Assembly (NCBI GenBank): GCA_018671895.1
Contig: JABHGV010000073.1
Location: 1-62,878, forward strand
Origin: Rhodospirillaceae bacterium
Lineage (GTDB): Bacteria; Pseudomonadota; Alphaproteobacteria; Rhodospirillales; JABHCV01
DNA length: 62,878 nucleotides
Direction of reading: 5' to 3'
Of the stretch, positions 10,982-57,892 are shown piece after piece (the first letter of the stretch is position 1; every line of letters begins with the position of its first letter). The notes beneath the pieces are model-generated. The model saw only the letters and a program-made list of their open reading frames with translations. It ran no database searches and had not been told where the DNA came from. The translations under genes and the position numbers were made by a program.

Positions 10982-11020
10982 AGCGCCGGAAGAATATGGT
11001 CCATTCCTATTGCCCCTCAG

Positions 11021-11085
11021 TCGCCGGGCGGGGCTACTCGCCCCTTGGCTTTTGGGGATTCTGGAAGTCAAAACAAGTTTGGCAA
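11021..11085 (+). repeat. dispersed 3'-end hairpin module, copy 1
   Basis: The copy is 40 bases after the methyltransferase stop and in its sense direction: GGCGGGGCTACTCGCCCC hairpin, then GGGATTCTGGAAGTC and AAAACAAGTTTGGCAAC. The extension after GTC is nearly identical to that of the copy at 32006-32080, which defines a longer subtype. Confidence 0.75.
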
Positions 11086-11120
11086 CAGGAGCCATCTCCG
11101 GTTCTTGTCGGAATTTGAAC

Positions 11121-11180
11121 ATGGCTTCCAGAATCCTCGCCGCGCAGCGCGCTATATATGCGCCGCCCGAAGGGTGCGCT
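11121..11180 (-). repeat. dispersed 3'-end hairpin module, copy 2 (after ppdK)
   Basis: On the minus strand it begins directly at the ppdK stop codon. There are two GC-rich hairpins in tandem: one contains CCCTTCGGG, and the second is GCGCGCTGCGCGGC. These are followed by GAGGATTCTGGAAGCC. TATATA separates the hairpins. Orientation is sense to ppdK. Together with copy 1 it forms an inverted pair between convergent genes. Confidence 0.8.
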
Positions 11181-28633: not shown

Positions 28634-28674
28634 GGTCGCGCCCATACAGGCCGGCGCGGTTTCTGGAAGTCAGG
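28634..28674 (+). repeat. dispersed 3'-end hairpin module, copy 3
   Basis: The copy starts 28 bases after the TIGR04372-type gene and in its direction. GGTCGCGCCCATACAGGCCG is followed by GCGCGGTTTCTGGAAGTCAGG. The hairpin is less regular than in other copies, but TCTGGAAGTCAGG is preserved. Confidence 0.7.
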
Positions 28675-29760: not shown

Positions 29761-29870
29761 TCTGGCTTCCAGAATCCGCGCCATCCGAAGGATGCGCTAA
29801 CAAAGTGGCCGCGCCCCGCAGGGCACTATATATGTCTGGCTTCCAGAATCCGCGCCACGTAGTGCGCCTA
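29761..29870 (-). repeat. dispersed 3'-end hairpin modules, copies 4 and 5 in tandem
   Basis: Read on the minus strand from the stop of the receiver gene: GCGCACTACGTGGCGC hairpin, GGATTCTGGAAGCCAGAC, then a second GC-rich hairpin (GTGCCCTGCGGGGC), then GCGCATCCTTCGGATGGCGC and again GGATTCTGGAAGCCAGA. The stem pairs differ (AC/GT, CC/GG, ATCC/GGAT) while pairing is preserved. The stop codon of the receiver gene is at the edge of the module. Confidence 0.85.
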
Positions 29871-31990: not shown

Positions 31991-32005
31991 TGCCCATTCC
32001 CCACA

Positions 32006-32080
32006 AGGCCGGGCGCTCCGCTCTGCTCGCTTGGCTTTTTTGGTTCTCTGGAAGTCAAAACAAGTTTGGCAACACGAGTT
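32006..32080 (+). repeat. dispersed 3'-end hairpin module, copy 6
   Basis: The copy comes after the porin terminator and in its direction. A GC-rich segment (GGCCGGGCGCTCCGC) is followed by CTTGGCTTTTTTGG, TTCTCTGGAAGTC and AAAACAAGTTTGGCAAC. The part after CTTGGCTTTT is almost identical to copy 1. Confidence 0.7.
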
Positions 32081-40895: not shown

Positions 40896-40930
40896 CTTGG
40901 CTTCCAGAATCCTCGCCGCGCAGCGCGCTC
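40896..40930 (-). repeat. dispersed 3'-end hairpin module, copy 7
   Basis: On the minus strand it starts a few bases after the LuxO-like gene: GAGCGCGCTGCGCGGC hairpin, then GAGGATTCTGGAAGCC. It fills the short gap between the convergent HPt and LuxO-like genes and is in the sense direction of the latter. Confidence 0.8.
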
Positions 40931-48147: not shown

Positions 48148-48184
48148 AGGCGCACTGCGTGGCGCGGCTTCTGGAAGTCAGGTT
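48148..48184 (+). repeat. dispersed 3'-end hairpin module, copy 8
   Basis: The copy begins five bases after the smc stop and in its direction: GGCGCACTGCGTGGCGC hairpin (TGC loop, one bulged G), then GGCTTCTGGAAGTCAGG. It is among the most regular copies. A different hairpin, CCGC-GAAA-GCGG, lies downstream at about 48232-48243. Confidence 0.85.
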
Positions 48185-56440: not shown

Positions 56441-56478
56441 TCGGCGCACTCGGTGGCGCGATCTCTGGAAATCAGACA
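56441..56478 (+). repeat. dispersed 3'-end hairpin module, copy 9 (exceptional orientation)
   Basis: Hairpin GGCGCACTCGGTGGCGC is followed by GATCTCTGGAAATCAGAC, on the plus strand. It lies between bamD and lpxC, which are both on the minus strand, so it is the only copy that does not follow a gene in its own direction. It forms an inverted pair with copy 10. Confidence 0.75.
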
Positions 56479-56532
56479 CACCTTTTGACAGGAGCTGAAT
56501 TATTAAAGAATAAAATGCCTGTAAGGATTTAG

Positions 56533-56573
56533 AGTCAGACTTCCAGAGACCTCACCCCGTAGGGTGCCATATA
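56533..56573 (-). repeat. dispersed 3'-end hairpin module, copy 10 (after lpxC)
   Basis: On the minus strand it begins about eight bases after the lpxC stop: ATATATGGCACCCTACGGGG hairpin, then GTGAGGTCTCTGGAAGTCTGAC. The stem uses GCAC-CC/GG-GTGA pairs with a TAC loop. Confidence 0.8.
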
Positions 56574-57775: not shown

Positions 57776-57850
57776 GGTCTGACTTCCAGAGACTTTGCCC
57801 CGCAGGGCACCATACATGTCTGACTTCCAGAGACTTTGCCCCGCAGGACA
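57776..57850 (-). repeat. dispersed 3'-end hairpin modules, copies 11 and 12 in tandem
   Basis: On the minus strand the order is CCTGCGGGG, AAAGTCTCTGGAAGTCAGAC, then GGTGCCCTGCGGGGC, AAAGTCTCTGGAAGTCAGAC. The two units are nearly identical and about 40 bp apart, so this is a tandem duplication. They lie downstream of the ftsZ terminator and in its direction. Confidence 0.85.
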
Positions 57851-57892
57851 CAAAAAAAGAGGCCAACCCGCTCATTCTGGCGGATTGACCCC
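57850..57892 (-). terminator. ftsZ terminator
   Basis: On the minus strand GGTCAATCCGC pairs with GCGGGTTGGCC (with two G-T pairs) around an eight-base loop and is followed by TCTTTTTTTG. It lies about 80 bp after the ftsZ stop. A smaller dyad, CCTCTGG/CCAGAGG, lies between the two at about 57934-57955. Confidence 0.85.

Follow-up and report, generated by a model that had tools for sequence, protein, structure and literature searches.

A covarying hairpin with a GNA loop and a bulged C, the probable right end of a short interspersed DNA element in a marine Rhodospirillaceae genome

At positions 29761-29867 (plus strand), two tandem units of the form TCTGG-CTTCCAGA-ATCC-hairpin stand with a third hairpin between them, in a gap between convergent genes for a nucleoside-phosphorylase-type enzyme and a response regulator. 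An earlier note on this locus, made from the sequence, had proposed that changes on one arm of such hairpins are matched on the other, which raises the question of what keeps these stems paired and whether it acts on RNA or on DNA. The window, by which we mean the whole 62,878-nucleotide stretch that was analysed, is contig C50 of a 98-contig Rhodospirillaceae-type MAG (2.50 Mb, 98.5% complete) from an uncultured, marine lineage. The answer that we prefer, with a probability of roughly 0.6, sees in the hairpin the right terminal module of an interspersed DNA element, non-autonomous and similar to REP/BIME and MITEs, and holds that the hairpin is kept foldable for the spread of that element.

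The hairpin belongs to a large family. A covariance model built from 18 copies gave about 118 matches at E<0.01 in the 2.5 Mb genome, and structural parsing yielded 119 hairpins, which follow the motif CTTCCAGA-NNCC; a handful of low-scoring ones among them are probably chance matches. A 16-base pattern covering the 5' side only found 36 copies in the genome, compared with 0 for the reversed control. Each hairpin consists of an outer stem (usually GCGC/GCGC), one unpaired C, two to five variable pairs, a closing C-G pair (110/119) and a G-N-A loop. Inner stems have 2, 3 or 4 pairs in 60, 16 and 38 copies, the commonest being CC/GG (22), GC/GC (20) and AC/GT (16), and there are 88 distinct full hairpins among the copies. 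The bare pattern GCGC..TNC..GCGC showed no enrichment in the window (29 occurrences vs 39 expected); the signal above chance comes from the repeat family, not from this pattern. The sequence CTGG-CTT-CCAG was considered as a second conserved hairpin and rejected, as its left side varies to CTGA, TCGG and TTGG.

A hairpin was found at every coordinate that the earlier note listed, and the constancy that it described for loop and bulge largely holds, with a bulged C in 113/119 hairpins and a G-N-A loop in 97/119. Among the 113 three-base loops, position 1 is G in 100 and position 3 is A in 108, while any base may stand at position 2 (C 54, A 40, T 15, G 4). The structure was described as having a bulged G and a T-N-C loop; the structure is real, but this is the complement, and read on its natural strand it has a bulged C and a G-N-A loop. 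Most copies carry this loop, although the copy at 56444-56459 has CGA instead. The outer GCGC stem, by contrast, is not constant as the note had it: its triplets read CAC/GTG at 56552-56567 (with an inner CC/GG stem) and TGC/GCA at 57795-57810, both compensated, and at 29811-29826 one of its pairs is broken. Because the outer triplets occur as matched pairs (CGC/GCG 85, TGC/GCA 10, CAC/GTG 4), the outer stem covaries too. The outermost pair is unpaired in many copies (T-C in 30, G-A in 16).

Table 1. Units, hairpins and elements of the family within the window (a full stop under strand marks the dimer of one minus and one plus unit).
Feature	Position	Strand	Description
Core motif TCTGG-CTTCCAGA-ATCC, unit 1	29761..29777	+	Sequence; stands ahead of the hairpin in about 119 copies across the genome
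Unit 1 hairpin	29778..29797	+	GCGC-C(bulge)-ATCC-(GAA)-GGAT-GCGC
Middle hairpin	29811..29826	+	GCGC-C-CC-(GCA)-GG-GCAC, without its own CTTCCAGA
Unit 2	29835..29867	+	TCTGG-CTTCCAGA-ATCC and hairpin GCGC-C-AC-(GTA)-GT-GCGC (29852-29867)
Complete 141-bp composite element, type b	11012..11152	+	Left end GCCCCTCAGTCGCCGGGCGGGGCTACTCGCCCCTTGGC, central inverted repeat, right-end hairpin 11137-11152
Extra tandem hairpin	11160..11179	+	GCGC-C-GCCC-(GAA)-GGGT-GCGC, one G.T pair
Solitary right-end unit	40896..40928	+	Hairpin 40913-40928, GC/GC stem
Right-end unit	48150..48182	-	Hairpin 48150-48165 (AC/GT stem), between an SMC gene and a convergent ORF
Head-to-head dimer	56444..56567	.	Minus unit (hairpin 56444-56459) and plus unit (hairpin 56552-56567)
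Two tandem units, 41 bp apart	57778..57851	+	Outer TGC/GCA; second unit with mutated 3' arm (GGACAC)
Degenerate right-end unit	28638..28674	-	
Orphan left half, without right hairpin	31992..32075	+	Left end with another slot hairpin (GGCGCTCCGCTCTGCTCGC) and TCTGGAAGTCAAAACAAG arm

The central claim of the note, that changes on the two arms are matched, was borne out across the 119 copies. Watson-Crick pairs fill 324/343 inner positions, compared with 236 +/- 7 when arms are shuffled (maximum 257 in 1000), and 333/357 outer ones, compared with 300 +/- 3 (maximum 310). As the model and the parsing both favour paired copies, the pairing test was repeated on the 36 copies found by their 5' sequence alone. 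The 3' arms of these copies pair at 197/208 positions, with a mean best-fit arm score of 10.4, whereas swapped arms scored 7.1 +/- 0.3 and downstream sequence 2.9.

Many copies of the hairpin form the right end of a larger, co-oriented composite element that starts with GCCCCTCANNCGCCGGGCG. The conserved left end GCCCCTCANNCGCCGGGCGGGGCTNNTCGCCCCTTGGCTTT lies upstream of many copies (44 copies by pattern), and in 40 of the 42 left ends that could be checked a right hairpin follows in the same orientation, 38 of them at 128-159 bp (mostly 138-159), one at 172 bp and one at 267 bp. Two types of middle were found: type a carries CGCCGAACGGTCGGCGGCCCGCAGTCGCGGGCTTG in an element of about 139 bp in total, and type b carries the inverted arm TCTGGAAGTCAAAACAAG in a total of about 150-156 bp, with some near 140. 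Outside the composite, copies are solitary (a right half of about 70 bp), head-to-head or tandem; close neighbours are head-to-head in 18 cases, tandem in 7 and tail-to-tail in 0, with a spacer of 10-12 nt in most head-to-head pairs. In the locus under study, TATATATG comes after the middle hairpin, and the same layout of hairpin, spacer and next unit recurs at 57795-57835. A tandem hairpin array with CTATATA spacers lies elsewhere in the genome (contig C80, 35238-35379), which suggests that the hairpin module is able to multiply by itself. A second repeat type (CTGGATTCCCGC...GCGGGAATGACG), which resembles CGTC-tagged REPs, often adjoins copies (C51:66276, C16:30310 and C78:71200-71290; loci L025, L081 and L029); none was found in the window. 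The orphan left half listed in Table 1 shares its module form with elements of a sister genus, and a terminator-like stem with a T-rich tail lies just upstream of it.

Model matches (E<0.1) numbered 11, 13 and 21 in three genomes of the same family but other genera, and 0-2 in the rest, where isolated matches look like chance background. In the sister genera, elements have GCCCCTCANNCGCCGGGCG...CTTGGCT on the left and its inverse on the right, and in one of them (L207, plus strand) the hairpin of the earlier note sits inside the element, between CTTCCAGAGGCC and AGCCAAG. Searches of 60 relatives with the 16-mer gave a background level of matches, and those inspected look like ordinary coding sequence without a hairpin. 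Phage records yielded nothing useful, nor did viral contigs (two isolated matches), and plasmid records matched the element over no more than its left part (query 5-79), in Niveispirillum. The left-end motif, GAGCCAAGGGG-loop-CCCCGCCCGGCGNYTGAGGGGC, is also present by itself elsewhere in the order, where genomes from several other families hold 1-10 copies (L164, L165, L166, L167-L186); changes on the two arms of its inner stem are matched, and two of the three copies read lie just upstream of a start codon. Elements of sister genus g2 (L199-L217) are often followed by short repeats, TTGATCCTTAATGAGGGGC, which are possibly a further right-end module there.

Within the host genome, copies are concentrated between convergent genes. 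The 84 gaps that hold a copy comprise 53 convergent, 27 tandem and 4 divergent ones, compared with 27, 101 and 44 among 172 gaps without one (convergent vs rest, Fisher p 5e-14); genes were called by simple ORF picking, and 19 copies lay within a pick, most of these picks probably being spurious. The hairpin at 11160..11179 abuts the 3' end of a pyruvate phosphate dikinase gene. Beside tandem genes the copies lie in the same orientation in 13 cases and in the opposite one in 23 (p=0.13). A bias towards convergent genes has also been described for BOX, RUP, SPRITE and IS elements, where it was read as parasitic mobility (PMC3049150). A T-rich flank precedes the elements and an A-rich one follows them (YWANNAAA after the hairpin), and no target-site duplication was detected in 39 elements (mean 1.31, compared with 1.33 for shuffled flanks). 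The host probably tolerates the copies as passengers that sit after gene ends.

The same position at gene 3' ends, mostly between convergent genes, would also suit a hairpin that acts in the transcript as a 3'-UTR stabiliser, an attenuator or part of a terminator and that covaries as an mRNA fold. Had the structure been selected as RNA, G.U pairs should be favoured on its own strand. On the strand read here, however, hairpin mispairs are G.T in 11 cases and A.C in 12 across the 119 copies, and those in the central stem of complete elements are G.T in 45 and A.C in 62. One full element in the window does fold well as RNA and seemed strongly to prefer the plus strand (z -6.1 vs -2.6), but over 39 elements no such preference was found, and a strand preference of the whole element was rejected. 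Copies occur in both orientations beside tandem genes, and the hairpin is followed by the A-rich flank instead of the T-run of an intrinsic terminator. Rfam models matched only tRNAs in the window and scored far below the curators' cut-offs at element loci. For short hairpins, the folding model used gave no strand difference in DNA folding energy. As G-U pairs are favoured on neither strand, full elements lack a strand preference and orientation is mixed, the evidence favours maintenance at the level of DNA over that of the transcript; the mispairs are few, and moderate RNA effects are possible. We therefore consider a function in RNA unlikely. The selection on a folded structure that the earlier note proposed thus stands as far as pairing is kept, while a folded transcript is unsupported and the history of copying is only partly separated from selection.

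That history could by itself mimic covariation, if a small number of founder hairpins had been multiplied and reshuffled in modular form and each hairpin was inherited whole. A few stems do dominate the family, the states of core and hairpin are poorly linked, and the copy tree, calculated with the hairpin columns left out, supports hardly any branch, leaving one or two usable pairs per position that are mostly concordant. When each inner-stem sequence was counted only once, however, 68/79 pairs were still Watson-Crick, compared with 47 +/- 3 for shuffled arms (0/5000 shuffles as high), and 15/24 stems were perfect, compared with 4.0 (maximum 11). The covariation is thus not lost when each stem counts once; the outcome that the note named as refuting, its loss once phylogeny and copy duplication are allowed for, was not seen, although with so little support in the tree it keeps some probability. 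In addition, the 88 distinct hairpins and the variation in stem length and outer triplets speak against this reading, and the founders would still need to have arisen paired. Copying history alone is accordingly an improbable explanation, and since the copy tree is almost unsupported, selection, copying history and templated repair of the arms are only partly separated. Quasipalindrome correction of imperfect inverted repeats is an established process, and by fixing mismatches in one arm from the other it would give paired changes without any function, in agreement with the frequency of paired changes and the rarity of intermediates, but it should erase the bulge, which persists in 113/119 copies, and it leaves the often unpaired outermost pair and the fixed ends of the GNA loop unaccounted for, and it too is improbable.

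The reading that we prefer, a DNA element whose right-end hairpin is kept foldable, proposes that the stems stay paired because folded DNA is needed for spread. We infer the exact ends and the mobiliser of the element, and its mobility from the distribution of copies. The element would spread by way of DNA folded as a single strand or as a cruciform, and there the C-closed GNA triloop and the single bulged C could be read by a recombination or transposition enzyme, and this enzyme might belong to the host or to an unrelated element. Those source copies whose hairpins were intact would have left most descendants, so that stems drift in sequence and stay paired. Extraordinary stability has been described for DNA mini-hairpins in which a GNA loop sits on G-C pairs (PMC4686876); the C-closed GNA triloop on G-C pairs is common to both, and the present hairpin may be similarly stable by analogy with that literature, which concerns synthetic oligonucleotides. 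A tentative, rather doubtful further step would be to see here a tag-less class of mobile hairpin of marine Rhodospirillaceae, whose signal is an ultrastable d(C-GNA-G) triloop with a single bulged C on one defined strand and which is moved as ssDNA by an enzyme other than Y1/RAYT.

Bacterial MITEs such as Correia/NEMIS and ERIC are non-coding elements of 100-200 bp that are able to fold. The present element falls into this foldable, non-coding size class, and its relatives in the sister genera have inverted ends; it differs in the lack of a target duplication in the 39 elements and in that the right inverted end is missing in this genome, where the hairpin forms the end. Integron integrase (TIGR02249), the criterion for attC sites, gave only sub-threshold matches, the same as in all 14 control genomes. 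BOX, RUP and SPRITE of Streptococcus pneumoniae are likewise short repeats, predicted to fold and enriched between convergent genes, BOX with variable internal modules (PMC3049150); by their descriptions they differ in host and module make-up.

A close likeness is to REP/BIME, which are also high-copy, short, intergenic imperfect palindromes that form head-to-head dimers and arrays and that have sub-families with alternative complementary stem bases and bulge or loop features (PMC3733652, PMC8266576), but the present hairpin sits in a composite element of mostly 138-159 bp. A GTAG or CGTC tag lies beside the hairpin in only 5/119 copies by a loose match, the flanks being NNCC and YTAA-like. 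The Y1 transposase of the IS200/RAYT type (PF01797) was found neither in this genome nor in two of the three sister genomes that carry the element (none in G000, G002 and G003; one match in G001, the third sister genome). As tag and transposase were both searched for and not found, we do not claim REP membership. The REP transposase of E. coli needs the bulge in its ssDNA hairpin (PMC8266576), REP families have alternative complementary stems, and CGTC REPs have been described as lacking a dedicated transposase (PMC3733652); the first two of these give the phenomenon a precedent. In total, this is apparently an undescribed family of short interspersed repeats in an uncultured marine lineage, in which covariation, usually the sign of a functional RNA, comes without an RNA-strand signature and points to the folding of DNA. 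If a mobiliser that reads the GNA loop and the bulged base were found, ssDNA transposition would be extended beyond the IS200/RAYT enzymes.
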